Shown piece after piece: positions 567 through 57,091 of a stretch of DNA of 64,000 nt (its first letter is position 1; each line of letters begins with the position of its first letter). The stretch is from positions 18,117,563 to 18,181,562 of the forward strand of contig NC_057922.1 in the NCBI RefSeq assembly GCF_018873765.1, read 5' to 3'. The notes under the pieces are model-generated. The model did no database searches. It saw only the letters and a program-made list of their open reading frames with translations, and was not told the origin of the DNA. The stretch is from Telopea speciosissima. Lineage: Eukaryota > Streptophyta > Magnoliopsida > Proteales > Proteaceae. The translations under genes and the position numbers were made by a program.

Positions 567-603
567 TTCAACCCTATTTACCAAAAAAAAAAAGTTCAAC
601 CCT
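567..603 (+). repeat. Micro A-tailed insertion between 9-bp direct repeats
   Basis: The 9-mer ttcaaccct occurs at 567-575 and 595-603. Between them lie 19 bp, atttaccaaaaaaaaaaag, a short leader ending ACC followed by an A-run. Short direct repeats around an A-tailed insert are the signature of target-primed retroposition, here with almost nothing left but the tail. Slippage cannot be excluded for a single case, but the same arrangement recurs in this window. Confidence 0.6.
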
Positions 604-1315
604 AAAATGTTCCCATCCCAAGTTCTATGCTTGACCGTGCTTGGTACATGATTGTGCAAATTTTTTTATCAAATCTCCTTTAAGAAAATGTCTAATTGGT
701 AAGGTCAGCACCTCTACCTGTCTCTCTCTCTCTCTCTTTCGAAGATTTTATATTCAATTGCAAGTAAAGGAATAAGAAAATGAGAAAGAAAATAATGAAA
801 AAAATTACATTTTTTTTTATAATAATGATTGTACAAATAACTAAAACTTGCGCCAAATAATAGCAAATTTGATAATTAATGTTTCCAAGTGGATTATTTA
901 TCTTTAAGGACAACCCCAGGATTTTGGTCTTATGTGGGAAGGGGCATGGGTGCATTAAAAAATTAATCTAAAATAGATACGCACGAATATTTCACATGCA
1001 ATATTTGGAATCTCATTTGTTTGTGGATCCCATTTTCAATATATGCTAACCATAAACAAATCATTTACTAAATATTGAGTGGAAATACGTGAAGAACTAT
1101 CCAACGATACACACTCTATCCGGCCAGCCGATTTAGCCACATATGTTGAATCTATTAAGACCAATTTTAATTAATTTTTTTCTGTAAGGAAAAAGAAGAT
1201 GGGAAATGAAATAATTAAAAAAACAATCACTATACTCCATCGTGAATTTTAGACATGGCCCCCATTCCCCTCGGATTCCATCTGTGTTTGTTATTCTATT
1301 GAAATAAAAAAATGT

Positions 1316-1702
1316 GGGTAAATTACATGTCACCCCTTGATTTTCAAACGAAACTTAAATCACCCATTGTATTAGACCTTAATATGATAAATTAGTGTTC
1401 ACCAAAAAAAAAAAAATGATAAATTAGTCCCTACTGTTAGTTTTATGCTGTTAAGTGATGATGTCAGCCAGTTAAATAAATTTAAATCCCTAAACTACCC
1501 TTGACATCCAAACATAGATTTTGAAGGATAGTCTTGTAAATTTAATTCTAATGTTTTAGTACAAGGGTAAAATAGTATTTTCATACCAATAACTAACAAC
1601 AGACTAACACCGTTACTGTAGAGGGAGACGGATGAGTATTTTCAAAAATCAAGGGATAATTTGAGTTTCATTTGAAAACCAGGGGGTGATGTGTAATGTA
1701 CC
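1316..1702 (+). mobile_element. MULE-like MITE (family B), copy 1
   Basis: This element of about 385 bp begins gggtaaattacatgtcaccc and ends with the inverse, reading ggggtgatgtgtaatgtacc. The interior aligns with the copies at 14428-14812 (opposite orientation) and 18540-18923 (same orientation). It has no coding capacity. The other two copies have perfect 9-bp target duplications. Here the flanks (aaaaaatgt and caaaaattt) match only in part, so this copy is probably the oldest or has decayed ends. A 20-bp micro-insertion lies inside it. Confidence 0.7.
1384..1427 (+). repeat. Micro A-tailed insertion inside a MITE, 12-bp direct repeats
   Basis: The 12-mer atgataaattag is present at 1384-1395 and 1416-1427 and flanks 20 bp, tgttcaccaaaaaaaaaaaa. 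The sister MITE at 18540-18923 has a single atataataaattag at this point and no insert, so it supplies an empty site. The insert again ends CACC plus poly(A). Confidence 0.7.
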
Positions 1703-1703
1703 T

Positions 1704-2755
1704 CAAAAATTTAATTGCAAGTGAAAAAGATTTAAAAGAAAAATTTGCAACTCAGTAGTGCAAATGATATAGAATATTTTTGCACTACATAAGTAGTGGG
1801 AAAATTGGCTTTTGACTGGGCTGAGTTACCTTCTACCAAAAAAAAAGATTGGGTTGTTGCCTAAGTCCAGTCAAATTTTTGGAAAACTTGATTAAAAGTC
1901 GTGTAAACGAGATCAGGGTAAAAAATGACTAGATCTCTCATGAGCCTTGTACCTCGTTTTTTTAAACTTGGCAATGATAGGGGATATAACAAATTTTAAA
2001 CGTTAAATCCGTTGTGCTATGGGGACTGGCTACTGTGTAATCCCTCTGCATGTCAAGGTAGAGCCAAATTTGGATTTTTGCATCGGTGCCGTTTAAGGTT
2101 AATTCAGTTGTGGAGGATATATATGCGAGTTCATGGCAGAAGGCTCAAGAGGGAAATCTGCTTCCCTTGCTCAACAGTGTTCAGTGCCAAACATGCATGG
2201 TTTGACTTTTAAGGAATTGGAGAATGATTGAAGTACTCTCTTTGTCTGAGACTTTGGAAAATTATTGATTGAACCAAGTGGTTATTGTTGGCTAGAACAA
2301 CGCAGGCGCTTGTTGGTGGTTTTGGATTGGGTAGGGTTTATAACTTTGTATATATAATGTCTAAATAGAGATGAAGGTGGCCGGAGTTGCCGAGAGGTTA
2401 AACCTGCAAGAACAGCAATTTCTAATGAAGGAAGCTTCAGGGGAAGAGGGGAAGAGGGAAAAGGGGGGGGGGGGGGGTAGGGGTTATAGGATTTTCTCCT
2501 GCAAGATTGCCAACACCATCATCTTTGTGCCCTTCTTGCATGCAGTTGCAGTGCTTTAGGACTCAATTCTTCCTTTAGTGCTTTTCTTGGACTTAATTGG
2601 AGCTTGCTTCCTCTTCTCAGGCTATTTTATTCCACAGGAGAGCATTCCTAAGTATTGGCTATTCATGTACTAAGTTTCCCTTTACAAGTATCCCTCAGAT
2701 GCTCTGCTCATGGAGGTCATAAGGGGGTGATGTCCAACTTAAGTACCAAGTATTT
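1704..2755. other. Intergenic, no gene recognised
   Basis: AT-rich sequence with short open frames only. At 1811-1860 there is a weaker ACC-poly(A) segment between imperfect repeats (gactgggctgagttacc and gattgggttgttgcc), which may be a decayed micro-insertion. A G-run lies near 2465-2478. Nothing in this stretch resembles a conserved protein. Confidence 0.5.
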
Positions 2756-3153
2756 AAGTATCTTTTGTAATCTATCCACACTGTTCAATCATGAGCCCTA
2801 TTGGATTAGACAAACCAATACGATTTTAACAATGAGTCTCAGTAATTTCTGTAGAAACTGGAAAATTTTTATTATCATATGATCTAGCAAAATTAGTGAT
2901 GAGAACAAGTTAACGAAAGACTTCTTTTGGGCAAAATCCAAGTACAAAACAAATCTCCAATCCTATAACAGTGTTATTGGGATTCCTTTTTTATTACAAC
3001 CAAAACCATTGCAGACCAGATTGAAATGGACTGCTGCCAACAGAAATTTCAAAGAAACAACCATTTGTGAACAGGCACCACCTAGCTATGGTGCCATTCA
3101 AGAAAGGATGCAAGCGGGCATCAGAACTCGTCGACATTTAGATTTGCAGAGAT

Positions 3154-14215: not shown

Positions 14216-14427
14216 GAAGAAGAGAGATGGGGCACGTTGATGGGATTTGTATCCAATTTTAAAATTCCAAATTACCTACAAAGAACTTTTTGTTTTAGGT
14301 AAACCTGACAAAGAACCTTGCAATACAAGAAAAGTGCACACTGGGTGCTATGTTTTTTCACAAGACTTTTAGTGATGATAAACAATTATCGACACTAAAA
14401 GTAGGCTTTTAGTAGGGATATTATTTA

Positions 14428-14812
14428 GGGTAAATTATACTTCGTCCCCTGGTTTTCAAACGAAACTCAGATCATCCCCTAGTTTTTGAAAAAATTCAAA
14501 TCACCCTTTCTACAGTAACGATGTTAGGTTGCTATTAGTTATTGGTATGAAAGGACTATTTTACCCTTATATTAAAATATTAGAATTAAATATATAATAC
14601 TATCCTTCCTTCATCTTAAACATTGGTCAAGGGTAATTTAGAAATTTAAATTTATTTAACTGGTTGACATCATCACTTAATAGCATAAAACTAACGGTAT
14701 GGACTAATTTGTCATAATGGAATCTAAACTAAAGGGTGATTTGAATTTTTTTAAAAACCAGGGGATGATCTGAGTTTTATTTGAAAACTAAGAGGTGACG
14801 TGTAATTTACCA
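14428..14812 (-). mobile_element. MULE-like MITE (family B), copy 2, 9-bp TSD
   Basis: This 385-bp element begins gggtaaattatac and ends gtgtaatttacca, in inverted orientation relative to copies 1 and 3. Perfect 9-bp target duplications tattattta lie at 14419-14427 and 14813-14821. Long imperfect terminal inverted repeats with a 9-bp duplication point to the Mutator superfamily. Non-coding. Confidence 0.85.
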
Positions 14813-16056
14813 TATTATTTACCACCACTAACAAGTTAATGATTACTTATTCCATGGTGGTTTAAAATTTATACCTCGAAAGAATGAGTTTTAGTGGCGG
14901 TTTCTTTTTAGGGAAAATTACAAGATTAACTAGAATTGAATTTTACTTTACAAAACTATCTACCTAATCTTTCATTTAATTAATATATCAACAACAAAGA
15001 TTGGTATTACAAAAATAGCCAAAACAGTTACCTTTATACATAACCTCCTATAAATTGAACAATTTTGTCCCTAAAATTGCACCTCTCTCTCTCTCTCCGT
15101 GGGCAATCCCTTCCCCTGAAACTAGTCTGCATCGCTCACACTGCCCCTCATCGGACTTCAAGTCTTCTCCTGCACCTCTAACATTATAGGGTTTCTGGGT
15201 TATGGGTGATATGATACTGAACATCCCAGTAGGTGGAATCAAAGTAAGGATTTTCAAACAAGTGATATTCCATTTCTTTGATAATGGGCTTTACTTCTAG
15301 AACTACTTTTTGAGTATATTAAGATAAGAAGACAAGGTGAGGAGGCAAAGGTTAAAATCAAGGCATATTTAGAGATACCATGCGATCTCAGATCTTAATG
15401 TTAGAATCCAAATTTCTTTTCATTTTTTATTTTCCCTTAAACGTGAACTCCGCTTGTCTCGATTTCACTGGTATCGTCCCTAGTCATTGTGTTGCTTTGC
15501 ATTCGAATAGTCGGAAAAACTAAACAGAAATCAATTTTCTACTTTCTAGAGGAAAAGTTCTGAAGAGATCGAAACTCCGGTGACAGATGCAGAAAAGAGA
15601 TAGCTTTAGTGATTTGGGCAAATGGATTGAAAGGGAAATGTTAAGCATTTATCATAAGAAGAGAAGCAAATGTCGTTAAAGAGAGACGTTGTGGATTAGT
15701 AATTTGGTTGACACAGTGTTTAATGCTAGAACCTGCTGGTTTAGTAGGACCTTGTGGAGAGAACTATTTTGACTTTTATGACTTCCCTAGGATTAGAGAT
15801 GACTTAGATCAATCCTCTTTCCTCTGTTCTTCTCTCTCTCTCTCGCCAAAGAGAAATCCTTTATGAACGTTGTTGGTGGCCTGAAGCAAAACGGTTTCTG
15901 AATATCATGGTTGTTGGGTTTCCTGGGCTCCCTATCAACGCGGATTTGCAGCGGTGAGTCGGAAAATTTAACGGTGGTGTTCAGTTAGGAGGTAAAGGTA
16001 ACGATTGCAAAGAGAGGGAAGAAAAAAGTGAGGGTAAACATGTCATCAACCACTAA

Positions 16057-18539: not shown

Positions 18540-18923
18540 GGTAAATTACACATCACCTTTTGGTTTTTATACGAAATTCAAATTACTCTTTGATTTTTGA
18601 AAATACTCAAATCATTCCTTGTATTAGACCCCAATATAATAAATTAGTCCCTATCATTAGTTTTATGCTGTTAAGTGATGATGTCAGTCAGTTAAATAAA
18701 TTTAAATTCCTAAACTATCCTTGATATCCAAACATAGATTTTGAAGGATAGTATTGTAAATTTGATTCTAATGTTCTAGTACAAGAGTAAAATAATCCTT
18801 TCACACCAATAATTAACAGCAGACTAACACTGTTACTGTAGAGGGAGACAGATGAGTATTTTCAAAAACCAGGGGATGATTTGAGTTTCGTTTGAAAATC
18901 AGGGGGTGAAATGTAATTTACCC
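18540..18923 (+). mobile_element. MULE-like MITE (family B), copy 3, 9-bp TSD
   Basis: This 384-bp element begins ggtaaattacacatcacc and ends gtgaaatgtaatttaccc. Perfect 9-bp target duplications aaacttaaa are at 18531-18539 and 18924-18932. The interior follows copy 1 closely but lacks the micro-insertion found there. Non-coding. Confidence 0.88.
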
Positions 18924-18960
18924 AAACTTAAATCATAACTCCCTTAAGGTTCTTCTTATA

Positions 18961-21296: not shown

Positions 21297-21454
21297 CCGA
21301 CCTTAGCTCAGTTGGTAGAGCGGAGGACTGTAGTTGGTCACACCAGACAGATACTCCCACGAGCGCAGTAAGGATATCTTTAATCCAAAACATTGGAATT
21401 GGTCACACCTAGCAGCAAATCCTTAGGTCGCTGGTTCGAATCCGGCAGGTCGGA
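21297..21454 (+). tRNA. tRNA-Tyr (GUA anticodon) with an unusually long intron
   Basis: The 5' exon 21297-21333 (ccgaccttagctcagttggt and onward) ends one base after the anticodon GTA. The 3' exon 21419-21454 contains the B box ggttcgaatcc and completes the acceptor stem, with ccgacct pairing with aggtcgg before the terminal a. Exons sum to 73 nt, and the anticodon stem GAGGA/TCCTT pairs. The intron starts after position 37, as in eukaryotic tRNA-Tyr genes, but is 85 nt (21334-21418), whereas plant tRNA-Tyr introns are usually around 10-25 nt. The repeat ttggtcacacc lies at 21334-21344 and 21399-21409. Removing one copy plus the 54 nt between them leaves a 20-nt intron. The upstream region has a TATA-like AT stretch and a CAA motif, typical of plant tRNA genes. 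The mature tRNA would be normal if the intron is still removed. Confidence 0.93.
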
Positions 21455-25030: not shown

Positions 25031-25034
25031 TATA

Positions 25035-25400: not shown

Positions 25401-26640
25401 GCTATAACAATAAAATCACCTCTTGATGACTTTAGGTTTAGTTAGTGCCTAACACCGCCCCCACCCTTTCTCAATTCAGTGGCTTCGGGTTGTACTTTCC
25501 AACTCTATCATCAATATCCGTTTGGTGTTCTACCGACCTCTTCTTAATCAAATTCACATCTCATAGCCAAAAAAAAATCACATCGTACATCTCCTCTCTT
25601 ATTTAATAATTCTTTTTTTTTTTTTTTAATAAAATATTTATTTGGATTAAAACTTGACATGTGAATAGAAGACCTTGGAAACTTTCATAAAATTTTAATC
25701 CAATCTATTACCACTTTGTTATGTGGATCACTAGACTAGAAAACCTTCACCCAACGACTTATTAAATAGGAGAGGAGATGTACGATGTGAATAGGCATGT
25801 ATTTTTTTTATTTTTTATTATTGATATATAAATTCTTTTGTTGATTATTAGGTGTATATGTAAATATATGAGAATGCATGCCGATACATGAAAAAGGCAA
25901 TAACTAAAGTTGGATATGGAGTTTTAGTAATGATATACCGAGACCATTTTCTAGGTATCCAATGATCAAATTCACCATTTGACCTTCCAAACAGTGGAAC
26001 TATAAAGTGTCTTAACCTAAAGACACCCTTATCAATCTATTGACCATAGGAACCTTTGATTATCTTTCTATATTTTCATAATTTTTATGGGTCCTTCTAG
26101 ATGTCATTATGTTTAGTGAAATATAACACTTCACTATTCATCACTTGACTGTAAATGAGTTAGTCCATGTGCTAAAGGGCTCCACATATATCTCAATGGC
26201 CAAATTTTATTCAAATACTGATTCAAAGTTTAGTCAAATTATCAAAATACCTTCAAATGGTGATGAATATAAACTATAAATGACATCTTTTTAAATATTA
26301 ACTATTTCCTCAACTCATTTTAAGATGAAATTAATTGTACCAATTTGATGCACATGGACTTCCATGGGGCAATAGTGGAAATATTATATTTCACTAGTCA
26401 ATTGCCTTCAAAATTGGAATCTTTCATGTGAACTAACTTCAGATGAGAAAGCTGGGACCTACCCAATGGTTGGGACCTCCTATGCATTAAAATGAACTTT
26501 TAACTGTTTTTGATTCACATTACCACTCTTATATTCTACAAAATGATAGCATCGAAACATATAACCCCAACATGATACCCTATCCAAAAATTAAGGAAAC
26601 ATAAAGAGCAAGAGAATTAGGTGATTCACAAAAGGACTCA
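25401..26640. other. Intergenic, no gene recognised
   Basis: AT-rich DNA without coding signal. At 25554-25584 tcacatc repeats on both sides of 17 bp ending ..gccaaaaaaaaa, a weaker example of the micro A-tailed insertions. Confidence 0.45.
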
Positions 26641-27815: not shown

Positions 27816-28664
27816 TATCCACCTAGACCAAAGGTGGTAATAGTAGGTTGGCTTCTCATTGTACAATTCCTCAACATGCAATAATCTTAATCCATTATTT
27901 GCCTAAGCCCCACTCCCCTATCCCCCGGAAAAAGATACTTTTCAACCACCATCCAACGACGGGGAAGAATTGGACACACATCCCCAGGTGTTTGCAAGTA
28001 TTGGAGAGGATTTGGATGCCCAAATATCAGAATTTAGAATATCAATAGATCAATACCAATACAGATCGAGTTGAAATGTTTGGAAATAAAATTTTTGATT
28101 TTTTTTTTTTTTTTTTGGTAAAATGTTAGATAAAATACAATAAATGTCCAGAAAAATCATAACAATGATTTTTAGAATGGAATATTGCAGAAAATGAAAC
28201 CACAAAGATAAATGTGTATAAAACAACTGCAAATTATTTTTGTTGTGAAAATTGTATAAAATACAACCAAAATTATACTAGATGTGTAGAAAATATATAA
28301 AAAAAAATATTATTGGAAAATATATATAAAAAAAAAAAAAATACACAAAGTTATCTACTCACATACAATATGTAAATTAGAGTGGCACAAAGAGTATAAA
28401 ATCATGATGCAATCACCACAACAGAATATACATAGCTATTATCCCACAAGTACAAAAATAATCATAATACAATGTCTATCGTCCCACAAGTACAAATTAC
28501 CCTCAACTTGTCATTATCTCTCATCGCGTGATAGTGTCAGCTTGTGATCTACAAAAACAATTAGAGTCAAGTTTATATTTGTAATTCAAGTGTAAAACCT
28601 ACTTAAACTTTCACTATAAAATAAATAGGCAAATAATCTAAAGAAATTTGAAACTACACATATC

Positions 28665-29770: not shown

Positions 29771-30425
29771 ATTTTCTAATCTTTGCCTTTGGCGTTCATC
29801 TCTTGATTTTTTTTTTTTGTTTATAGAACAGAGAAGTTCTAAATTAAAGTTTTTTTTTTCTAGTTTCTCAACAATTTTTAGTGTCTAGTTTATTTCTAGG
29901 AACAAAAAAACGAACAGACGATAACAAATGGATTTCTATTCTTTTTTTATTTTTAAAAATTTAAAAAAAAAACACAAAGAAACAGAGAAACAGAAATGTT
30001 AATATATAGGGCCTATATTTCTGAAGAACAAAACCGATAAATGGAAGAAAGGAACTTTGGATGGTAACCCGTACCTCTACTGTTTTTTCTGTTGGATTTT
30101 TGGTTAGTACTTTGGATGGTAAGTCTGTTATTTCCAAGTGGAAACTTCCAGGCTCCAGCCATTATACAATCAGGTCGGGCTTCTGGGTTTCCCGGTTGTG
30201 TTAGAAGCTTCAGTTCAATGCTTAGGTGGAGTTTCTACAAAATGTTTTATAGTAAGTGGGGGAGAGTAAACAAAAAACCAAGGATAAGGGTTTCCTTGTA
30301 AAATAAGACAAAATATTATTAAATTTACAAGAAAGACAAAACTAAGCGAAAATAGCCTAGGCGGCCAATCCCTCCCGTTGTTCACTTTTTAAAATCTCTG
30401 CATTTTTTTTGATCGACCGAACCGA
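29771..30425. other. Upstream region of the arabinosyltransferase gene
   Basis: AT-rich DNA with several T- and A-runs and no recognised gene. It probably holds the promoter. I could not pick a convincing TATA box, as is common for broadly expressed plant genes with CT-rich leaders. Confidence 0.35.
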
Positions 30426-30429: not shown

Positions 30430-31326
30430 AGCGTTGACAAGTCTCTCTCTTATTCTCCTTCGTGTGTCTGAAGCTCTCTGCAACGCATTTGTTCAGTTCA
30501 GAAGCTTTTCGGCATCCGTAGGATCTCTTTTTCTGATTTCTTCTGTTGCGCCTCTTTACATCAATCAGGCTTCTCTTCAGTCGACAGGTATATGCACCTT
30601 ACAACAGCATTTAATCTTCTCTGAATTTTCGCAGTAGTTTGGAATATCATTCTCTCTCTTTCTCTTCTCTATCTGGTGCTGTGACTTGCTTCGATACCCA
30701 TTTCACCATTTGGGTGTCTGTGGGTAGAATTACAGATCTGGGTTCCGGATTTTATGTCGACAATTTCACGCTTTGGCTGCAGAGCGCAGTATTTAGTTCC
30801 TCTTATACTCTTCTGCCTTTTATATTTGTTTTAAATTGACTATAATGATTTTTTGAAGAACTGAATACTCTGTAGGTTCTTAGTTCTAACCCCCCAAAAA
30901 ACCCTCTGTAGGTCTCCTCATAGGCTCATACCAACAGCAATGTTTTTATTTTTTTATTTTAGAGCTTAAATTTTGGTTTTTTTTTATTTTATATTATTCG
31001 ATTTTATATTTTTTAAATTTGATTATTGATTTTCTTCTCTAATATAGCTTTACGTCCTTATTGAGTTGCATGACCTTGATCTCTTCTAATGTGATTGTAT
31101 TTTTTGGTACAGTTGCTCACCGGAGCCTGCTTTCGCTCGGATTTCTGCTTGAATGATTTAGAATTCGTATAAATTACTGTTTCTGCTGCTACGATTGTGG
31201 GTTGAAGGTGGGAATGGGAGTAATCTAGTGGGATCAATGTCTGTGTTTAAGTAGCTGCTATGGAAAGGAGAATTGGGTTGACCTGATTTGGAAAATTTCG
31301 GAGTTCACCTTGTAAAACACCCGAAG
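30430..31326 (+). promoter_or_regulatory. CT-rich 5' leader with a likely 5'-UTR intron
   Basis: A CT-rich stretch from about 30440 (caagtctctctcttattctc) resembles a plant 5' leader. A donor at 30588 (gacag/gtatatg) and an acceptor at 31111-31112 (tttttggtacag) would remove a 525-nt leader intron. Between the acceptor and the main ATG at 31327 are short upstream frames, including one starting at the ATG of gctatggaaaggag and ending nine codons later. Transcription start and leader splicing are inferred. Confidence 0.5.
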
Positions 31327-34300
31327 ATGATTGGAAGGAAGAATATGGGACGGGCATCACCTCTGTTTCTAGTGCTGCTGGCACTAGGGTTTTTCTTTGC
31401 AACTTATAATCTGTTAACAATGGTAATTCACAACAGAGGGAAAGGGGTAGCTGATGATTTGGATGGTGGATCATTTTCGGATCCCATTACGCATATGCCT
31501 GAGAATGTGAAGACAACAGACAGTACTAAGTTACCTTTTCATGTTGCCTTGACAGCAACCGATGCTCCATACAGCAAGTGGCAGTGTCGCATAATGTACT
31601 ATTGGTATAAGAAAGTGAAGGACTCGCCTGGGTCAGACATGGGAGGATTCACTAGGGTTCTGCATTCAGGAAGTCCTGACAACCTGATGGATGAGATCCC
31701 AACTTTTGTGGTTGATCCTCTTCCAGGAGGTCTGGATAGGGTGAGGATTCTTTCACTGTTTACATTGATTTGTCTCTTATAGAATAAAGAATTATTTTTC
31801 CTTGCTGTATACATTCTTGTTCTTGCATTTGCTCATCTAAGAGTTTTCTTTCTGGAAAGAATAGATGCACGGACAATTCCCTTTCCTGTCCCTCTTTTAA
31901 GTATTTCTCCATTACAAACCATGAGGAGATTGCAGTTGTGAAAGCAATTTTACTGTTTGATCTTAAACCATTGGTTAATTTGAAGAAATTAAGAACTGTT
32001 TCTGTGGACATGGATAATGGTTATCCTAAATTTTGACTACAAATTGCTTGCTGGCAAAATTTCAGAAAACAATGTGGTTTTAAGTAGAAGAAATGCAAAT
32101 AAGTATGCTTCCGACTTTTTCTTTTGTGATTTTCCCCCCCCCCAAAAAACTAGTCAGAGAGATTTCTTCTCTTTAGCATATCGTTGTTGTTTATTCATTT
32201 TTTTTTGGATTTGTTTCGTAATGCAATTTCCAGGGTTACATTGTCTTGAATAGACCATGGGCTTTTGTTCAATGGCTGGAAAAGGCAACAATTGAGGAGG
32301 AGTGAGTTTTCTTCCATTCAAATGTGCTGAAATATTTTCTTCTCCTTTATTTCTTTCTCGAGTAGATCTGAAAGTTCATGAATTTCTGTGACTAATGCAG
32401 ATATATACTCATGGCAGAGCCTGATCACATCTTTGTAAATCCTTTGCCTAACTTGGCACATGGAGGATATCCAGCTGGGTTCCCCTTTTTCTACATTAAG
32501 CCTGATCAGCATGAGAAAATAATAAGAAAATTCTATCCTGAGGAGAAGGGCCCTGTGACAGATATTGATCCAATTGGCAATTCTCCCGTGATTATCAAGA
32601 AGGTAAGGTCTCTAATTGCTATGTTAGCTCAGGAGAATGATCAGAATGACTGTGAATGATTGGGTGTTTATGCATTATGATAAGGTTGGAATCTGCTACT
32701 TACTACAAGCACTAAAAGGGCGTGGAAAAGTGTATATGATTGTCATCATCTTTACCTTTACCAGCCTTCTTGGGAGTGTTTATAACTGCTTTGCTTCCCC
32801 CCCCCCCCCCCCACCTCACCCTAAAATGCCCTTAGTTTTCTTTCATTTTCAAGTTGTCGTGATTGATTAAATTGTCCAAATCATGTGTACTACTAACAAA
32901 TTTTCTTATTTCAGTCAATGCTGGAGCAAATTGCGCCTACATGGATGAATGTATCTTTGAGGATGAAAGATGATCCGGAGATTGATAAAGCTTTTGGATG
33001 GGTGTTAGAAATGTGAGATATCTTACATCTTCCCTGCTTTGGTTTTGGTTGAGGCCTGAACCTAATGTATAACTAACATTCTTTTTAATGGTTTGGTCAT
33101 TTACTTGCTGAACTAAGGTATGCATATGCTGTTGCATCTGCATTGCATGGTGTTAAACATATTCTTCGCAAAGATTTTATGCTACAGGTTTGTCTTACTG
33201 TGCGAATAACTCTTTTTTGTTTGATTCCATTTCAGCAAATTTTTATAATTTTCTGAAAGTAACAAATTAGTTTGAAAACATAGTTTTGCTTATTAATTAC
33301 TTTAAATGGTTATTTCAGCCCCCATGGGATTTGGAAGTTGGAAAAAGGTTCATTATTCATTACACTTATGGATGTGACTATAATTTGAAGGTATGCCAAT
33401 GTATCATGAAAATTAGTTCAATTCCCTGTGTGCTTTATTGCACTTGTTTAATAACAAAATGCATTCATTTTCAAACACATAGTTGTTGGCCGCTTCCTTA
33501 GAGTCATTATTGGTACCTTTGTTATGTGTCTGAAGTTGATTACTGTGCAGGGTGAGCTAACATATGGAAAAATTGGACAGTGGCGCTTTGACAAGAGATC
33601 CCATCTTCGCGGGCCTCCACCAAGGAACCTCTCCTTGCCTCCTCCTGGAGTTCCTGAAAGTGTGGTATGCCTATTGTTGTGTTTTTACTCAATAAAAAGT
33701 ACCGCACACCATGAAACACTTAAGAATATTAGTTTATGACATCCAGGGCTTTATGGTTTATTTCATGGTGTATTCGTCTGTTTTTCGTACATGATAGACC
33801 CTTGCCTTTGGATAAAGTTGGATCTATAAAAATTTTGTTTATGTTTTAATGGTTACAGACTTACAGTATGATCTCAAGTTTTTGAACTTTATATTGTCAA
33901 AATGCTAACTCTCACCATCTAATGGCTCTGTCATCTTGTAAGTGTCTTTACCCTGTGTAAGTTTTGGTCTATCTGTTGCATTCTCCATGTTTGACGACTC
34001 TTAGGCATGATGCATCATGTGAGTTTGCTAGGATTGTAATTCCTTGTAAAAATATATGGGTGGTAATTCCATTGTTGAAACCCGACACCTAGTGATGCAG
34101 GGCATTCAGCCAACCCGCCAGGCCTAACCTACCAGGCCCAGCCCAAGGCCAGATTTGTGCCTGCAAGACCAGCACGACCAGGCCTAAAAGGCCCAGCCCA
34201 TAGGTCGACACCTATGCTGGCCTGGGTGAATCAAACCCAGTGGTTCTGCCTTTTCATTTTCCTAGGCTAGTATTTCCTCTTACTATGTGTCTTTTCAGTT

Positions 34301-37300: not shown

Positions 37301-40300
37301 TTACGCGTTGAGCATCAATCATGTCATACCACTCAAAGTAGTGGCCCATGTCTGAAAGCCAATCCAAGAAGACTTTTGGATCAAGTCTTCCATCATATGA
37401 GTGAGTATAAATCTTCACTTTATTTGCTATTTCACCAGCCCTATCTTGGCATTGCATGTTAGGCATCCTATCAAGCATTTCCCATTCTTCTTCGTCCTCA
37501 TCATAATGATGATGTGGACCTCTTGGTGGATAGGGAAACCTATGTCGTCATGGGGCTCTCGACACCCAAATTGACATGGCTGGTCATTAGGGACTTCACT
37601 CCTCTGAGTTTCATCCCGTCTTTCAACATCCTATTGATGAATGTCATTTTCCCTATCTCTAGGAACATGCTTCCTAGGCTATCTTGCAGCCTCAAGAGCT
37701 CTCACATGCATGTCTTGGGTCTCAAACTGGTTTTGGATCTCATCCAATCGAGCATTTATGCGACCCAACTGTTCAGCCAAAATATCTAAGTTCATTGTTC
37801 CTATTTGGGGTGTGGCTGGTATTGGGCCCCACTACAGGTTGACATACAACAAATGGGAAAGCTTGAAGAGGACGCAAAGGGCTGGAACTATCCTCTGATA
37901 CCAAAATTGGTGTAGGACAAGTTTGGGAAACCTAGAAAATTATCCTAACTGATAGGTAGAAGGATGGGAAGGGTATCCAACTCATATATCTCAGCATAAA
38001 TGCAGAAAATTGACAAGTATAGCCATAAATAAAGAAATACACAAATCATATGTGCAGAATTTTTGGTCACAGCACACTTGGTAGCTAGTGGTGCGTAAAG
38101 GCCCATTGCTATCAGGCGGTCTTGAGTTCAAGTTTCTTGGTTCACATTCTACATACCCCCCTACCTATCAAAAAATATATATATATGTGCAGAATTTCAT
38201 GCTAAGTATGCAAAGGAAAATTTAATAAGAGAAACATGATAGATCAATATCTTTCTTTGCTTTCCCATGGGTTAGAAGGCTGTGAATAAGAGCTGAATCA
38301 CTACCTAACTCCAAAGATTGTGCCGTAAAGGACTCCTTGTTGGTAGAAGAATATCCAAGGTATTTGGGGGCTGAAGTTGATAAAAATTGGAAAATTTGGG
38401 ACTGATACAAGAACTTGTAAGAAATTTAGCAATAATCAAGTCTAGGCACGAAGGGGAAATTAGGTTTCTTAGAGATTTGGCTAAGGAGGGTCAAGCGAAA
38501 TTTGAGATACCACAGTTTTCATCACAATCAGTCCTATTCCAGCCACACAAGTATGATTTATTGGGGTTTATGGGATGCTGTAGTTGAAAGAATAAATGGA
38601 ATGCCTTAAGGAAATGAAAATGGAGGTCGGGAGAAATATGATGAAACAATCAACAATGGAACTGGGGGATCAAACAGGGATAGTTTGCTGTCGGTATAGA
38701 GTTTGAAAGAGAGGTGTGGATAGAAGAAGAAGATAGAAAAGAAAGATCATCTTGGCTTCACACCATCTTGGAGTTGGATTCACTCCAAGAATTGCATAGT
38801 CACTCATGCTGCAGAAAAGAGAGTAATCTCTCAAGTCCAAATACATTTTTTTCATTCATTCATTGTCTTCCCATCATTAGTACAAAGTGTCTCATAACAT
38901 TACACAACAAAAAACAGTTATTTCCTAAAATAACTACCCATATAACTACACATTAAACCTCAAAATAGTTATTTCCTGAAATAACTACCCATATAACTAC
39001 ACATTAAACCTCAAAATAGTTATTTCCTAAAATAACTACCCATATAACTACAACAAAATAAGATAGTCTGGCCCCAAATAAAAGTACTCAAAAAAAAAAA
39101 AAATGCACATAATATTTGTTATCTAGCCATAATGAAGTGACATGTGGCTGCTTGTGTCTGTCTCCGCTGATAAGTCCTAAATTCTGTTGTGATGTCCCCA
39201 TCACCTTTCCTATTTAGTGCTTGAGTCTTCTATATAAGTTTGCAAGGTGCTACAGCCTTTTACACGAATTTGATTAATGAGATTTTGGCTTGAGCCTTTT
39301 CTTTATTTTGTGAGATTCAGATTTGCTGTGAGATGCATTGTTATGTGGTGGGACTCCAATCGAGACTAAGTGGGATGCTTAGTCATATCTTCTTATTCAT
39401 CATTAATATTAAAGTAAGTACTCCATAGTTTTTGCAACTCCATATCCTGTCCAATGATTTCAATAACAGCATTCTTTTGGGTTAATTCGATTCTACTGCA
39501 ATCTAGTCCTTGTTGCTAATATTTGACTGCCATTCATTTACACATTCATGACTCCATTAAAATCCTGCAAACTAGAGATTGAAACTTGCTATTTTCAAGT
39601 CTGATTGGAGGTGTTTCAGTTGAACAAGGAATCTGTCCAATCTCAGCATCCAACCGACGGATTAATCTGAGATTAGACTATGTTATTCTCCTCTGTTGAA
39701 TCTACCTATGAGCTGGATTGTATCCAGATCAGACCTGCTGATCTGCTGCTGTAATAAATCTCTCAAATTTGGATTATGGGTTTCAGATTTTTACTGTTTT
39801 GTTTATTGCTTCAAATCTGACCATTAAAATGTTGCTGTATTTTGGGGTTCACTTATTCTAACACTTTGTGTCCCTTGATCAAAATCTGACTTTCATTTGA
39901 AAAGGTTGACTTTGACTCCATTGTTAGCCTAAATTCTGTTTAGGGTTTAGTTGTGATCCTGTTATGGGGGAGTATAAATCTTAACCTAGGGTTCATACTA
40001 TTTACCCCCATCAAAATGGTTTAGGTAAAAAAGAGTAGGCATTGCCGACTGCTCACCTCCATTCCAATAGGGACAAAGAAAACAAATTATTGATCCACTG
40101 TAAATAGCACGAGGTGGCTTTAAGATTGGGTTTCTGCAAGCAGCTGGGTTCAAGTTGAACCAAGGGATGTCTGAAGTAAATTGGAAATGTTTAATCCTGT
40201 GTTAATGATAGTTTAGGCATTACTTGGGTCTCAAGAGTGTGGGTGAAAGCCTGCTTAGGAAACTTGAAGTCCTCTAGGAAGGCTTTGGAGGCCTCCAGAC

Positions 40301-47109: not shown

Positions 47110-48322
47110 ATAATGGGAGAAGGTTTTTGCCGCACCGTCAATGTAGGAAAATCTTTCGTAACATACCAATAGCGGTACAAAGACTATTTATATGGTCCCA
47201 CACGGTAAGGAGAGAAAATAGAAATTAATTTAAAAAAAAATTATGTGAGAGAGCACACACAATGCATTAATTGTCAGGAAAATTTTTCATAAAAAAGAAA
47301 AGATTCTCTGAGTAAGAGATATAGAGTACACCAACGAGATATAATAAAACAATATGAGGGTATCCAAGTCATTCATGCAAGGATAGGGAGATAGCTACAG
47401 AGGTGATAGTCTCTTTTGCCCAGTAATTCAGAGAACTTTTTTTCAATAAAATATAATCATTTAATAAAAGACACATCAATGGAAACACAGGTATAGACTA
47501 TGGTAGAAGTTATAAGAATAATCATAAATTATTTATTAAGTAATTTGCAAAAAGTATGAACCCAAGGGTGCGTTTGAGATTTGTAGTTAGATTTCCTGTT
47601 GGCTGTTAGATTAAATAAATTTTCATGAACGAAGGGAAGTAATTAAGGGGGAAAAAGAGAAAAGCATAACCTTTTTTATGGATTTGTTTAAACCTTTTAC
47701 GGGTTCCAATGTTTCTTTCTCCCCTTCCCTATTGCGGTATGCCATCCTAAAAGAAAGAAAGAAAGAAATTAACAAAAAAGATAAGCCTCTGACGGACTGT
47801 GACAGTCAAAGACAATGAAAGATGAGCTATCATGTGCATCTAGTGCGTATACATGTTCTAGTGCATAGTGGTACCACTCCATTATGTCCTCTCCAAGTGA
47901 TACAATTTAGGGGTTAAAATAAAAAGGTGACAATTTACGGTTCAAAATAAGGTAATGGATTTTTGAGTAGGAAAATAACATCTTGGGCATGAGATTTGCT
48001 TGGTTGTGTAATCCAACATGGGGTTAATGAGCATGTGAAGGGCATCAATATAGATGAGATTTTTTATTTGAAAAAGGGTTTGATAGTAAGTTCATATGCT
48101 CTTATGTCTAAGTGTAAGAGCCACATGATCAAACAGCATATTTTGTCCTTAATGTCTTTTATAGTTAAACCCAACTCGAGTAAAAAATTCAACCAAATAA
48201 CTCTTCATGAAATTTAAAATCTTATAATATATATATTGAGAAAGAGAACGGTACTTGGTCGCGTGCGGTACCCGTCCCTTGTGCCCAGACATAGGCTTGT
48301 GCAAAATGACCACCATGCCCTT

Positions 48323-51300
48323 TGATGAGTCATAGAATCCCCCAACCAACCAAAAGCTACCACGTAAACGTATTGGAACTAAATCCGAGGCCGAGGCTGA
48401 GCACTGAGACCGAGGCCGAGGCCGAGCACTGAAGCCAAGGCCGAGGTCGAGCACTGAAGCCGTGATAGGGCATAAAATCACCTCACTAATTAGAAGTCGC
48501 CACGTGGCCGACCGAGGTTAGTCCAAGAACCGAATCGAGCCGAGCAGAAATCGGGCCGACCCGATCTCCGATAGGTCACCCGACCGAGCGGAGCTCACAC
48601 AAGTCGCCGGCCGAGGCCGAGCTCACACAAGTCGCCCATAAACTCCCGATCGAGCATACACAGACAACCTAGGCCGAGCTAATCGCCGAGACCGACCTCT
48701 CGAGCCGACCTCCCGTGCCGAGGTGATTGCCAAGACCGACCTACCAGGCCGACCTCCGAGGCCGAGCCCTCCTCCACAGAAGCTACCATAGCGCCCCACA
48801 GGGATCGCAGGGCCACGTCGCACATCCCGAGAATCAAGGGATAAGGATCGAGCCACGATCCCAGCCGCAATACGAAATCACACTTTACATGGACTCTTGC
48901 CTTAATAAGAGCCCGACCCCGAAAATAGCTCTCCACTCCGCCTACGGAGAGAGCATTCCAAAAGAATGACTCCTACCATACTAGGACTCTCCCAACCGCC
49001 TCATCTCATCCTCACTCTATAAATACCCAGGTATGAAGCACCATTTCGGATCTTGCTTTCACTATGCGATTCGCTTATTGTATTGGAGACCGACTTGAGC
49101 GTCGGAGAGTCCTTGGCGAGCCACACCGGCTCTCTTGTGCTCATCGCTTGTTTTTGCGGGCTCATCCGTAGGCGAACCGAGCATCGGAGGTTTTCACCCA
49201 CAACAGATTTGGCACCGTCTGTGGGAACGACATCAGCAAGTCCTTGTCATTTCTACCAACCTCAAGAGCAACAACAATGGTGCACACGAGATCAGGTCAA
49301 CATGGCTCAACCTCTCGAGGAGATGAGCTACAACCTAATAGGCAGGCGAGACAATCGCCACCCCCGGAGACGTCGCGGCAAGGGGCGGCAGAAGACCCCC
49401 ACAGGGGGAGGTGCTTCGCGCAATGCGGGTACGTCAATCCCACGCCACCGGGAACAGGGGGCAATGGGGAAGTGTCACTGGACGCGGCGGCGGAGACCAA
49501 ACTCGGAGCCGAGCCAAATGGGCTGAACTTGCCGCCACCACCACTTTTGCCGAGAGTTTGGATCCCGAAGGGCCGGCGAATAATCGACGAGTGTCATGGA
49601 TTTGCAATTGCGGATGCTTCAAACTAACGAGATGTTGCGCACCTTCATGACCCGGATGGCTCAGGGCGGGCTAATGGGTCAGCCACCGATCGCGCCTTCC
49701 GGGCACTCGCACGTGAAATGGAAGATCCACGGTAGCACGGTGATCGACAAAGGGCCAAACTTAGCCGAGCCGTGTCATCCCATCCCCAAGGCCGAAGAAC
49801 TCCACCTCCACGACAAAGTGGGAGTAATCGGCGAGATGAGCAAGGACATCGTCGAAGCCCGAGGGCCGTAGAGGACATCGAGCCAGCAGGTCACCGCAGA
49901 GATTGATCTTTTGGATGACTCGATGACGGTAAAGGACCGAGGAGACACCAAGATCGACGTGAAGAGCCCCGAGTACGACGTGCTATAAAGGAAGAAGAGG
50001 ATTCTCGCCATAGCCCTCGGACGAAGTCCACTTCGCCAGAGAGATGGACGAAGGAGCCCACATGAGTCCGACCACGTAGATGACGTGCGCGCTAGGAGAA
50101 GTAATGTTGGCCGAGCGACCATAATGGCCGGCCTCGTCAACACGAGCGAGAGGATCAGTTGGTCGACCTCATTAGGATGAGTGGCCACCATAACGCCACC
50201 GACTTCAAAGAAAAAGCGCAAGACCCCATCCGAGCAGAGGAACAAAATGGTCGAGCTCTAGAGTCGAAATGGAGAAAAAGCTAAGGGAGCTGATCGAGCA
50301 AGTTGAAGGGCTTAAGAAACAAGCAACTTCGGATGCCTACTCACTGGTCGCGTATCACCCCTATCCGCCTAAGATCATGACATCACCGCTTCCGGTAGGG
50401 TTCAAACCACCTCCCTTTAACCGGTATGATGGGACTATCGACCCGATCGACCACATCAACTACTTCAACGCAATGATGACCATGTACGGCGGGATCGAGA
50501 TTGTTTCTTGTCGAGCTTTCCCTCGTCCCTAAAGGGTGCGGCAACTTCTTGGTTCTCATGGCTACCACCGAACTCTATTACAAGCTTTGCCCAACTTTGC
50601 CGAGCCTTCGTCACGCGCGTTTCCAAAGTAGCATGAAGCATAAGAAGACGACGGTGAACCTCCTCGCGTGAAATGAGGTCGGACGAGCCGATCCGATCGT
50701 ACTTCTATCGGTTCAATAAAGAATCCCTGGATGAGGCCACAACTTACACCACGATGAGCAATGGACTTACACATGAAGACCTGATCAAGGACTTGGCTCG
50801 AAAGTCGACCAAAAGTTATGGCCGAGCTCCTTGACGTGTGTAACGAGTTTGCGAACATGGAAGACGTTCTCCAAGCACACAAGGGGAATGAAAATGAGGG
50901 AGAGAAGAAAAGGTCAGCAACCGATGATCGAAGGGATGAAAAGGACCAAGATCGACCGCAGAGCCGAGAGCTCGGACCGAGCTCGTAGTCCCGAGTACAC
51001 TCCCTTAAATAGGTCGCGAGAAGGAAATTTTGATGCAAATTCAAGACGCACGGGTACATATGCTAACCTCGACCGATGCAAGCCGGATCATCCCGAAACC
51101 CCAACAAGTACTGCCTATTCCACAAGGACGAAGGCCACGACACCGAGGAGTGCTACCGTGAAACGAGAAATCTAAGAGCTAGAGCAAGGCACTTGAAGAG
51201 GTACATCAAGGGGAGCCGAGAAGAACGTGGAAGTCGACGACTCAAGACCGCGATCAAAGGAAGTCCGAGCCGAGGTCCGAGAGCCTGGAGGATCGAGCGC

Positions 51301-54206
51301 GACGAGGACAAGGTCTCGAGCCAAAAGAAGGATGACGGATCTGGGCCGTGCAATGAGAAAGGAGCTCCCATATACACCATCCTCGGAGGGCCCGGACATG
51401 AATCCACCCAAAAAGCCAAGGCGAATGCACGATGCGTCGGAGTCGCAGAGATGCCGAGCAAAAGGCCGAAGGTGACGATCTCCTTCTCTCGAGGCCGACC
51501 TCGAAGGTATAAGTTTACCTCATGATGATGTTTTGGTGGTACAGGTAGAAATAGCGAGGAGACCTGTTCAACGGGTATTGATCGATACAGGAGCATCCGT
51601 GGATCTTATGTCGCCGGACGTGTATCAACAGCTCGGCTTTGGGGATGAGGCGCTCAAACCGAAGCCACCTCACCCCAGGGATTCTCGGGGCCGCCGCCAT
51701 GATTAAGGGTCGATAGACCTCCGGTCACGTTCGGGCAAGCTCCATACCAAGCTTACGATCCAAGTCAAGTTCATAGTGGTACGGTCGGTGGTGGCCTTCA
51801 ACGCCATACTTGGTCGCCCATCGCTCACCGCCCTCTAAGCTATCATCTCGTCAATACACTTGAAGATGAAATTCCCCACAGAGAACGGCATCGGAGAAAT
51901 CCGAGGTGATCAAAAGAGAGCTCAAGAGTGCTACGCCACCTTTGTAAAGCAAAACAAAGGAAATGTCCGAGGAATGGCTATATGCGTTGAGCACCTCCAC
52001 GAAGACTAGCGGGATGAGCTCACCAAAAGGCGCGGAAGGCCCGTGGAAGACCTCATCCTGTTCTCCCTTAGTGACGAAGACCCAACAAAGACGCAGTGCG
52101 GGGCCTTGGAACTCAAAAAATTTGAAGAAATTTTTCAAGAATTTTCTTAAGTATTACGCTTCGGCACACTCATGACAAGCATTTATGTATTCGGCTTCAA
52201 CCTCGACATTCTTGATTCAATGAAATAAAGTCTTTTCTCCACTTGCTTAGCGCACTTGTAACACGCCGAGTGGACCAAGTCGTAAGACCGGTCCTCATAG
52301 ACTGGCCGACCTCAAAGACCGACCCTCATAGGACTAAGGCAACCAAGTCGTAAGATCGGTCCTCATAGACTCGACCGACCTCGAAACCGACCCCTCATAG
52401 GTCGACAACTAAGTCGTAAGACCGGCCCTCATGGACCTGTCCGCCTCAAAGATCGACCCTCATAGGTCGGCAACCAAGTCGTAAGACCGGTCCTCATAGA
52501 CCTGGCCGACCTCAAAGACCGACCCTCATAGGTCGGCAACTAAGTCGTAAGACCGATCTTCATAGACTCGGCCGACCTCGAAGACCGACCCTCATAGGTC
52601 GACAACCAAGTCGTAAGATCGGTCCTCATAGACTGGCCGACCTCTAAGACCGACCTCATAGGTCGGGCAACCAAGTCGTAAGACCGGTCCTCATAGACCT
52701 GGCTGACCTCAAAGACCGACCTCATAGATCGGCAATCAAGTCATAAGACCAGCCCACAAAGATCGGCCGACGTCCTCAACCAACAAGAGCAAACTCTCCC
52801 CATGGCCGAGTGAACAAAGTCTAAAACTAAGCTAAGGCATTGCGCTCGCCTATGGAGGTTACTCGACCACAACATCAAATGGAACAACATACACAAGGAA
52901 AAGAAGGCTAAAATTGTTGAGCTAAAACAGTTAGACAAATTTTGAGAAACAAAATTTTCATTGATTAAAGAGCCATCGCTCGGCACAGACATAGAGAGGT
53001 AGCTCGGCCCGGTACATACCAAAAAAAAAAAGAGGAAGAGTTCAGCGTGATTCAACGATCCAAATCAAAAGACGGTTCAAAATCCCGAGCATCATCATTA
53101 CGCAGAGTAATGTGGCACCGACACCCCAACCGACAAACAAGACAACGTCAAATCGCCAAGGAAAAGAGCTCGGACTTAGCCTCGAACGCAACGTAAGCGG
53201 ATGAAAGATGACACTCATCAAGGACGAGCCGAGCCTTGATGAGTGGGGGCCTGTGATGCGTCATAGAATCCCCCAACCAACCAAAAGCTACCACGTAAAT
53301 GTACTTGGAATCGAATCCGAGGCCGAGGCCGAGCATCAAGCCGGGCCAAGGCCGAGGCCGAGGCCGAGCACCGGCCGAGGCCGAGGTCGAGCACTAAAGT
53401 CGAGGCCGAGGCCTAGCACCGGCCGAGGTCGAGGCCAAGCACCGAAGCCGTGATAGGGCATAAAATCACCTCACCAATAAGAAGTCGCCACGTGGCCGAC
53501 CGAGGTCAATCCAAGAACCGAATCGAGCCGAGCAGAAACCGGGCCGACCCGATCTCCAAAGGTCACCCGACGCAGTCGAGCTCACACAAGTTAGCCAAGG
53601 TTGAGGCCGAGCTCACACAAGTCAGCCATAAACTTCGACCGAGCATACATAGGACAACCTAGGCCCACCGATCGGCGAGACCGACCTAACAGACGACCTC
53701 TCAAAGCCGACCTCCCAGTGCCGGGGTGATCGCAAGACCGACCTACTGTGCCGACCTCCTAGGCCGAGCCCTCCTCCACGTGGTTACCATAGCGCCCCAC
53801 CGGGGATCACGGGCCACGTCAAGACATCCCAAGAATCACGAGATAAGGATCGAGCCACGATCCTGTGGCAATACGAAATCACACTTTATATGGACTCTTA
53901 CCTTAATAAGAGCCCGACCCCAAAAATAGCTCTCCACTCCGCTCTACGCTAGAGAGCCTTCCAAAAGAATGACTCATACCATACTAGGACTCTCCCAACC
54001 GCCTCATCTCATCCTCACTTTATAAATACCTGTGTATGGAGCACCATTCCGGATCTTGCTTTCACTATGCATTACGCTGTGCATTGGAGACTGACTTGAG
54101 CGTCGGAGAGTCCTTGGCCGGAGCCACACCGGCTCTCTTGTGCTCATCGCTTGGTTTTGAGGCTCATCCGTGGCGAACCGAGCATCGGAGGTTTTCACCC
54201 GCAACA
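48323..54206 (+). mobile_element. Non-autonomous gypsy (Tat-like) LTR retrotransposon, gag-protease type, fossil
   Basis: The 5' LTR is 48323-49205 and the 3' LTR 53254-54206, both TG..CA. The target duplication ccctt is at 48318-48322 and 54207-54211. Directly after the 5' LTR comes tttggcaccgtctgtgggaa, typical of Tat-like primer-site regions. A purine-rich gagtgggggcctg precedes the 3' LTR. The interior has gag-type sequence (FKPPPFNRYDGTIDPIDHIN), a CLFHKDEGHDTEEC knuckle-like motif and a protease-like LIDTGASVDLMSP segment near 51580. Reverse transcriptase and integrase are absent, and a tandem array lies in their place. Structurally whole as an LTR element, but its coding parts are broken in several places. 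The LTRs are similar but clearly diverged by eye, so it is not very recent. The base composition is strikingly GC-rich against its surroundings. Confidence 0.9.
52278..52790. repeat. Tandem array, about eight units of roughly 65 bp, inside the LTR element
   Basis: Each unit has the form (c)aagtcgtaagaccggtcct, then catagac..ggccgacctc, then gaccgaccctcataggtcgg. Spacing varies from about 55 to 75 bp. It lies between the protease-like region and the 3' LTR, where pol would be in an autonomous relative. Confidence 0.85.
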
Positions 54207-54425: not shown

Positions 54426-55123
54426 AAATTTATCACTCCATCCCTATGAAATAAAAAATTCCATTCAAATAGATGTTCATGCTTACTCTCAATGACCCAC
54501 ATATTGATGCAGGGGTTACACAACCAATCAGCATCTGTTGCCCAAACTTTAATATGCATAATATACACCAATTCACCTTGCTTACCCTTTGGTCATTGGT
54601 CTTCAAAGATGAAAAGTTTTTGAATTATTGCTGGGGAGCTATTTTAAGATTTTGTCATTTTGACCTTCCTCTAACCCATAGCAACACATGTCACCAAAAT
54701 TCGTAAGCACATATTATTCCAGAGAAATCTTTGGATGAGTCATGAAGTTATGCTATTGGAAGCTGCCAATGGGTTCTACTGGTAAGGTCTGTAGGTCTGT
54801 TTGTCTTAAAGTATAATTTTTTTCAGAAATATTTTAGAAGTAAAAGAAAATTTTATTAGAAAAAAAAAAAAAACAGAAATATATATTTTTTTTAAAGAAA
54901 ACAAGGCAAAATCTTCTTGGCAGATCGTCTTTAATTTATATTTTATTTATTGAAGGTGGGCCTACAATGATACTAATATCTGCAAACTGGTTATTAAATA
55001 GTTAATGCTAATAATAGTTGTGATGCAAGAGTTAATGTGATGAGAGTGTTGAGAACTTGAGATATTAACACCCTTCATTCATGTGTCATCATACCACCAT
55101 ACTTCTTCCTTTTAATTGATAGA

Positions 55124-55159
55124 TTTATTCTCCCATTAAAAAAATAAAAGTTTATTCTC
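55124..55159 (+). repeat. Micro A-tailed insertion, 9-bp repeats, older than the duplication
   Basis: tttattctc is at 55124-55132 and 55151-55159, flanking 18 bp, ccattaaaaaaataaaag. The same arrangement is in unit B (about 61404-61440), so the event predates the duplication. Confidence 0.5.
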
Positions 55160-55476: not shown

Positions 55477-55477
<1 letters not shown>

Positions 55478-55524
<47 letters not shown>

Positions 55525-55525
55525 A
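55478..55525. repeat. (CT)n(CA)n microsatellite
   Basis: A compound dinucleotide run of CT units followed by CA units. The unit-B equivalent at 61745-61770 is much shorter, so the array expanded in A or contracted in B. Confidence 0.9.
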
Positions 55526-55865
55526 GCTTTTGCATTGTTTATAGGATAATTGAGTTGTCTCGTCGTCCTTCATTTCCAGAGAAGATTCAACCAAAGCAGT
55601 GAATGAGTCTCCTTCTGTGGAGCATCCTTAAAATTTGTGGTGTTTTAACAAAGGAGAAAAGAATTCTGTGGAAGAGTGTGTGTTCTGCATCCAAATACAA
55701 AGGGGGCGAAATGATTCTCAACCCCCCCCTCCCATAAAAGGCAATAATGATCACCTTGTTGATGTCTTTGTGCATGCTCCCATTGACCCCCACACATGCA
55801 CAGGAGCCATGCTCCCCCCATAGAGAATTCTTCCCTTTTTAATTAAATAAACAAAATTTTTGCTG

Positions 55866-56873
55866 TTGTGTCAAGAAATCGCTCGGTGGTCCCTCGAGTG
55901 TCTTAACTTGCAAAAGGACCAAGGTGACAAAGGAGAACCGGTGTGGTTCTGGCCTAGGACTCTCCGATGCCTAAGTTAGATCTCTCTGAACAAACAGACA
56001 AATGAATAGAGTTCAAGATGAGTTTGTGGGATAGAATACCTTCCCTTTTATAGTAGAGTATGGCGATGTGGAGAGTCCCAGTTCGATGGCGAGTGATCGT
56101 GTAGTTGATAGAGTCCCTGGGTAGCAGGGCTCTTCCTTAGTTGGTGGCCTCCTTAAGGGAGGTAGTGTCCCAGTGGGGTTGATGTCCTTAATAGAGAGAC
56201 GCTTATATGTATTGGACAAGGTCCTCGGTGTTTGAGTCCGTCTGGGACTATGTGGCTGGTAGGTTGTGGCCTAGTGTCCTTGAGATGGTGTATGTCTTGT
56301 TGATGACGGTGGTAGTAGCCTGATCTTAGATCTTGGTGGTGGTCATGTCCCTGGGCCTGGTCTACGCCCGAGGTCCAGTCTGTGTCCGAGGTCCACGCTC
56401 GTGGCCTTGCCTGGGTCCGCACCCGTGGCCTTGCTTGAGTCAACGCCGACCGAGGCCTTGCGATCCGCGAGTGGCCATGCTCGCCCGAGGCCACGCTTGC
56501 TTGAGTCCGCGCATGCCCGAGGCCACGCCCGTGGTCCGCACCTGCTCTTCTCTGAGGCTGCGCCTGCCTGAGGCCACGCCAGTCTGAGGCAGCGCCTGCT
56601 TGAGTATGTGCCTACCCGACGCCACGCCCGTGATAGCACCTGCTTGGTAGCGCCCGCCAAGTCCGCACCCGTGGCCTCGCCTATGCCTGAGTCAGCACCC
56701 ATGGTCGGGCCTGTCTGGTCCGCACCCATGGCCGCGCCTGTCTAGTCCGTGCCCATGGCCGCGCTTGTGGTTCACGTCGGAGTTGGTTCTCCATCGGGCC
56801 TGGGACGGTCCACCTCTTTAGGCTGGAATACGTGACGGCTCACGATTGACCAGTATGATTTTGGGTTTATCAT
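55866..56873. mobile_element. About 1.0-kb GC-rich insertion in unit A, possibly a solo LTR
   Basis: Unit B runs from taaataaacaaaattgctg directly to catcaccttcat. Unit A has about 1 kb between these points. It begins near tgttgtgtcaagaaatcgct, contains a TATA-like cccttttatagtagag (56044-56059), and from 56340 to 56780 is full of degenerate repeats of a GCCTGAGGCCACGCC type. Length, TATA box and lack of coding sequence suggest a solo LTR. The target duplication is unclear, with only ctg shared at both borders. Confidence 0.6.
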
Positions 56874-56895
56874 CTGCATCACCTTCATAAATTAT

Positions 56896-56938
56896 AGCTA
56901 TTGTATAATTTTTTTTCCTGTGAAAGCTATTGTACAAT
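56896..56938 (-). repeat. Micro T-tailed (minus-strand A-tailed) insertion with empty site in unit B
   Basis: agctattgtataat (56896-56909) and agctattgtacaat (56925-56938) flank 15 bp, tttttttcctgtgaa. Unit B has a single agctattgtacaat at 62127-62140. On the minus strand the insert reads ttcacaggaaaaaaa. Confidence 0.8.
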
Positions 56939-57046
56939 CTTGGAGTCAAGGGTTACATTACTTAAGAATTGGTAATAAATAGAAATAATATCAATGTAAG
57001 ATGGTATGAGTGTATGACACTATTAACTCTTCTAAGTCTATTTTGA

Positions 57047-57091
57047 ATACCCATAATCCTTACACCAAAATAGAAAAAATACCCATAATCC
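57047..57091 (+). repeat. Micro A-tailed insertion, 13-bp TSD, shared by both units
   Basis: atacccataatcc is at 57047-57059 and 57079-57091, flanking 19 bp, ttacaccaaaatagaaaaa. The same insert is present in unit B at 62432-62450 with slightly decayed repeats, so the event predates the segmental duplication. Confidence 0.75.

Follow-up and report, generated by a model that had tools for sequence, protein, structure and literature searches.

Tiny A-tailed insertions between direct repeats in a 64-kb window of the Telopea speciosissima genome: probable products of target-primed reverse transcription halted near its start

The stretch of DNA analyzed here, which we call the window, comprises 64,000 nucleotides of Telopea speciosissima (contig NC_057922.1, positions 18,117,563 to 18,181,562; G+C content, 39.3%) and contains a series of very small insertions, each ending in a run of A and each lying between two copies of a direct repeat. 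All tests were confined to this single window, whose own sequence was the sole comparison material. The original prediction had named five clear sites, and at all five the repeats proved exact, measuring after maximal extension 10–17 bp around inserts of 13–19 bp; a sixth case on the minus strand was added to that list. These six strong sites are the following:

567-576/595-604, plus strand: tiny insertion; 10-bp repeat TTCAACCCTA; insert TTTACC + A11 + G, 18 bp.
1384-1396/1416-1428, plus strand: tiny insertion within an element resembling a miniature inverted-repeat transposable element (MITE); 13-bp repeat; insert GTTCACC + A12, 19 bp.
46976-46992/47006-47022, plus strand: tiny insertion; 17-bp repeat; insert CTTACC + A7, 13 bp.
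47061-47076/47094-47109, plus strand: tiny insertion; AT-rich 16-bp repeat; insert CTTTCTATC + A5TA2, 17 bp.
57046-57059/57078-57091, plus strand: tiny insertion; 14-bp repeat; insert TTACACC + an interrupted A-tail, 18 bp.
56896-56938, minus strand: sixth case; stub TTCACAGG + A8; repeat (56896-56934) of 10 bp exact, or 14 bp allowing one mismatch.

The inserts follow one plan: a short stub, mostly T-rich, and then an A-tail abutting the 3' copy of the repeat, which adjacency holds for all six sites, five in the plus and one in the minus orientation. The length of the duplication varies, being 10, 13, 17, 16, 14, and 10 bp exact in the order given above. Its first base is A in five of the six sites and is preceded by T in two, the tail obscuring the border. 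The AT-rich repeat at 47061 failed the complexity filters of three other scans and was recovered solely in the direct-repeat survey, which collected non-tandem pairs of at least 10 bp separated by a gap of 10–60, excluding repeats that overlapped a hand-made list of tandem arrays.

To estimate what chance would yield, we used a flank-swap null, in which the 3' flanks are exchanged among the A-runs while composition and run lengths are retained. Among the 71 A-runs of at least 8, a correctly placed exact repeat of at least 9 bp was present in five, against 0.19 expected (one of the five, the run at 54859, encloses 41 bp), and a repeat of at least 12 bp in two, against none of 4,922 swapped pairs; for A-runs of at least 6 the null was built upon the first 82 of 222 tracts. 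With a mismatch-tolerant score of at least 10, six runs were retained against 0.14 expected, two of them (58546 and 8648) tandem or of low complexity. In the direct-repeat survey the tail occurred on the side proper to a retroposon in 6 of the 30 non-tandem pairs, where background rates would give about 1.3, and on the wrong side in two. Because the strict nulls are surpassed but the looser rules give a weak signal, the strong sites are safe against chance and the weak ones not individually secure.

The sequence that precedes the tail is itself non-random. With the words before runs of 1–4 as the reference, the greatest enrichment before A-runs of at least 8 belonged to TACC among tetramers (7 of 71 runs against 0.47 expected; p 5e-7) and to TTTACC among hexamers (3 against 0.03 expected); ACC, moreover, precedes 6 of the 29 A-runs of at least 10, and the pattern TTYACC-A8, which was chosen post hoc, matches the window four times against 0.02 expected. 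The recurrent stub end is T(T)TACC or TTCACC. A run-by-run flank-swap test then scored 8 ACC-preceded and 58 other A-runs out of the 71, the low-complexity runs at 58546, 8648, 8639, 8657, and 8666 being omitted. For the ACC runs the flanking repeats exceeded those of swapped flanks with a combined p of 8e-7, five of the eight reaching p <0.02; after removal of the three that the original prediction had listed as clear, the remaining five still gave a combined p of 0.001, with the run at 28116 unremarkable (p 0.11). Among the 58 other runs, five had p <0.05, where about three would be expected, and two p <0.01. Since the score settings were fixed after the earlier mismatch-tolerant scoring, and since ACC had first been noticed in the original prediction, these p values serve as guides only.

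The weaker sites named in the original prediction fared unevenly: an exact 9-bp repeat stands at 55133 and a 7-bp repeat at 25561, whereas at 17661 and 1831 repeats appear only if mismatches are allowed. Two old candidates are new here, of which that at 49-100 (run at 77) outscores all of its swapped pairs, its p of 0.008 being the lowest attainable.

55124-55159, plus strand: weaker case; exact 9-bp repeat enclosing CCATTA7TA4G, shared with the paralog at 61402-61437.
25554-25584, plus strand: weaker case; 7-bp repeat TCACATC enclosing TCATAGCC + A9; flank-swap p 0.016.
49-100 (approximate), minus strand: old candidate; CTTTACC + A12; 17-bp repeats with five mismatches.
53000-53051 (approximate), plus strand: old candidate; GTACATACC + A11 with degraded repeats; p 0.015.

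A further run, TTTGCC-A9 at 282, was set aside, as a MITE-like homology (127-281) ends at the same place and no repeat was discernible by eye.

Self-comparison revealed that the window holds related copies of its own segments, and two of these preserve the unoccupied state of a strong site. The 32 bp of 1384-1415, namely one duplication plus the stub and the tail, are precisely what is missing from a MITE-like relative at 18.6 kb, which retains a single target copy with one base different; in a second relative, at 14.8 kb, divergence at this place precludes a clean reading. In the segment duplicated between 56.9 and 62.1 kb, the word AGCTATTGTA is present twice at 56896-56934 and once in the paralog, so that the former copy has gained 29 bp (56896-56924) relative to the latter:

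62127-62136, minus strand: empty site; the repeat word stands only once in this paralogous segment, as found by self-alignment of the window.

The insertions at 57060 (counterpart near 62.43 kb) and 55133, for their part, are filled in both paralogs and are consequently older than those duplications. Since some insertions predate duplications and others have empty counterparts, the events were spread over time. The remaining strong sites have no paralog among the self-similar segments of the window. As a separate observation, the paralogous stretches 57100-57200 and 62470-62500 carry, in one, an A-run of more than 20 with a C-rich lead and, in the other, GAATACC + A12.

All six tailed inserts of the direct-repeat survey span gaps of 13–19 bp, against 7 of the 24 untailed pairs with gaps of at most 19 bp (Fisher p about 0.003; two of those seven are paralogous copies), the untailed gaps extending in all from 13 to 54 bp. 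These figures suggest, from few events, a narrow size class. A sharp one is not proven, because weaker pairs of A-tail and 9–10-bp repeat enclose 26 bp (30868), 41 bp (54824), 42 bp (55613), and 50 bp (11784), the 41-bp body being present also in the paralog. Still further pairs, with 11–12-bp repeats, enclose 114, 1082, and 1314 bp; the scan that yielded these weaker pairs also picked up the 120-bp SINE-like element described below and tandem arrays.

We consider it probable that these insertions are almost completely 5'-truncated non-LTR (non-long-terminal-repeat) retroposons, generated through the target-primed reverse transcription of a polyadenylated RNA by the machinery of an L1-type long interspersed nuclear element (LINE). 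The endonuclease of such an element would introduce a nick into the target, and the nicked end would then pair with the poly(A) tail of an RNA that in most cases ends in T(T)TACC or TTCACC, whereupon reverse transcription would begin; copying would halt 6–9 nt beyond the tail, as the six strong cases suggest; and cleavage of the second strand followed by fill-in would leave the 10–17-bp duplication. While the enzyme, the template, and the early stop are what we infer, the variable duplications, the tail on the same side in six of six, the occurrence in both orientations, the two empty sites, and the recurrent TACC or ACC are directly seen in the window. A reverse transcription stopping just past the tail—the mechanism that the original prediction had proposed—accounts for the duplications, the side of the tail, and the empty sites.

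The likeness to 5'-truncated non-LTR retroposons in general, such as the products of L1-type LINEs, Sadhu, and the short interspersed nuclear elements (SINEs) of plants, lies in the variable duplication, the 3' A-tail, and the clean empty site, while the difference lies in a body reduced here to a stub of 6–9 nt. For Sadhu in Arabidopsis, PMC2848041 describes truncated A-tailed copies with duplications, consistent with abortive retrotransposition, the target duplications measuring 7–16 bp. The kind of event is thus already known; for the small size and the recurrent TACC stub we found no description, nor any report of a class of 10–20-bp A-tailed insertions, in the open PMC library, which absence constitutes weak evidence.

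As a source of the stubs, the original prediction had pointed to a SINE-like element in the window:

38048-38197, plus strand: A-tailed SINE-like element of 120 bp (38063-38182) with a 15-bp duplication, ending in CTATC + an A-rich tail.

That element shares with the insertions the A-rich tail and the duplication, and one stub, at 47077, has its CTATC end; the other nine of the ten stubs compared, in contrast, share no more than one final base with it, and by these ends it is not supported as the source. By raw comparison, three of the other stubs share 6 nt with interior stretches of the element's final 60 bp, and a single degenerate pattern retrieved no relative of it from IMG/VR. Matches of the stubs to their own 100-bp flanks did not exceed those to random flanks in any of the ten (lowest P, 0.12). 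We also considered the CCA acceptor end of a tRNA, which we take to be unlike these T-rich stubs. To judge from the stubs themselves, their common template would be an RNA with T(T)TACC or TTCACC at its end.

A bolder version of the scheme, which we hold only tentatively and rather doubt, is that the insertions form a discrete class of "nano-retroposons" of near-fixed size (the tail plus 6–9 nt) that stem from the recurrent copying of a single RNA 3' end, T(T)TACC-poly(A). In that event the reverse transcriptase might meet a roadblock after a fixed stretch, or the RNA copied might be tiny and oligoadenylated. If such a class existed, its members would occur once per 5–11 kb (from the 6 strong to about 12 including the weak in 64 kb), would be more numerous than full SINEs, would constitute a main source of long A-runs in the window, and would be invisible to repeat finders.

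Several results weigh against the derivation from an aborted reverse transcription. The motif and the score settings were picked after the cases had been seen; among trimers, TTT (12 against 3.1 expected) outranks ACC (8 against 1.7); and the ACC run at 62479 shows no flanking repeat (p 0.51). Of the 30 direct-repeat pairs, 24 enclose untailed filler, five of the six strong cases share one strand, and the nick sites of the six lack a clear TT/AAAA. A looser rule, applied to both strands, returned 13 matches in the window (one event being represented by two copies) and 9 in the reversed sequence, while 60 local shuffles averaged 2.9 and never exceeded 8. Finally, no TACC-ending LINE or RNA was found in the window, where 10 of the 23 long open frames were domain-scanned.

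The main rival to that derivation is the repair of breaks, in which two offset nicks, or a break, would be filled in to give a short tandem duplication while end joining added filler; we regard this course as unlikely. It, too, leaves a few new bases enclosed by a short direct repeat, and the window contains untailed repeats of exactly that form at 170, 28442, and 30054; yet it predicts neither a tail constantly on the 3' side nor the recurrence of TACC, and none of the ten stubs matches its flanks beyond chance, as filler copied from nearby DNA would. The untailed repeats themselves, which are possible break-repair duplications, measure 12 bp around 15 bp of filler at 170-208, 15 bp around 25 bp at 28442-28496, and 14 bp around 41 bp at 30054-30122; PMC8355091 presents such duplications as common short insertions in humans, mentions plants, and cites a study of rice.

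Less probable still is a tiny template, an oligoadenylated RNA of about 15–20 nt copied in its entirety with no abortion. The confinement of all six strongly tailed inserts to 13–19 bp would suit it, whereas the weaker tailed candidates of 26, 41, 42, and 50 bp and the variation of the stub from case to case would not; and we know of no tiny oligoadenylated RNA of that kind. Chance or slippage in AT-rich DNA is very improbable as a general explanation: the narrow margin of 13 matches over 9 under the looser rules speaks for it, but repeats of 13–17 bp and the flank-swap results speak against it, and it is contradicted at the two sites whose empty counterparts reveal that the sequence gained was novel. 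Excision footprints of DNA transposons, in which a pair of target copies may be left with a few bases separating them, are the least credible alternative of all, since cut-and-paste families duplicate a target of fixed length and, notwithstanding the MITE-like elements with inverted ends in the window, the six strong sites, with repeats of 10–17 bp, share neither a fixed repeat length nor the terminal bases of a single family, while A-tails of 7–12 are, to our knowledge, not usual at transposon ends.

The surroundings of the insertions include other features. Among the 10 of 23 open frames scanned, part of a hydroxyproline O-arabinosyltransferase is encoded at 31282-31782, and a sub-threshold match to a retrotransposon gag was recorded; 58888-60291 encodes part of a protein that matches both of the xylanase-inhibitor (TAXi) domains found in plant aspartyl-protease-like proteins, and we take both it and the arabinosyltransferase to belong to plant families. 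The sole Rfam family matched in the window was RF00005 (53.8 bits), at a tRNA gene (21297-21454) that presumably specifies tRNA-Tyr; ARAGORN found no tRNA in the window and so missed this gene. Its intron is unusually long, at about 85 nt, and contains an 11-bp repeat, TTGGTCACACC (21334-21344 and 21399-21409), around 54 bp devoid of an A-tail, as if those 54 bp might have been inserted.

A trio of mutually related elements, each about 400 bp long and with inverted terminal repeats, occupies 1307-1702, 14417-14820, and 18540-18934, the first being the host of the insertion at 1396. A gain of 178 bp relative to the 56.9-kb paralog, at 62178-62355, is MITE-like: its ends are inverted, and it has relatives at 21.95 and 23.56 kb. 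Long direct repeats at 48319-49205 and 53250-54206, about 5 kb apart and 82% alike, resemble those that terminate an old LTR element; G+C-rich tandem arrays with units of 6–66 bp accompany them and also occur at 52274-52774.

Should these probable remnants of aborted retroposition represent a general class, the scars of the non-LTR machinery would exceed what annotation shows, because surveys of the kind consulted begin at 50–100 bp and the tools require a recognizable body; a primate survey counted only insertions of at least 50 bp (PMC2912911) and the short L1 set of a mouse study covered 100–400 bp (PMC11084082). The insertions would then provide a measure of the frequency with which reverse transcription begins but fails, would explain part of the A-runs and of the 23–36-bp indels in such genomes, and would furnish a source of presence/absence markers, while the recurrent TACC end offers a handle for tracing the template RNA.

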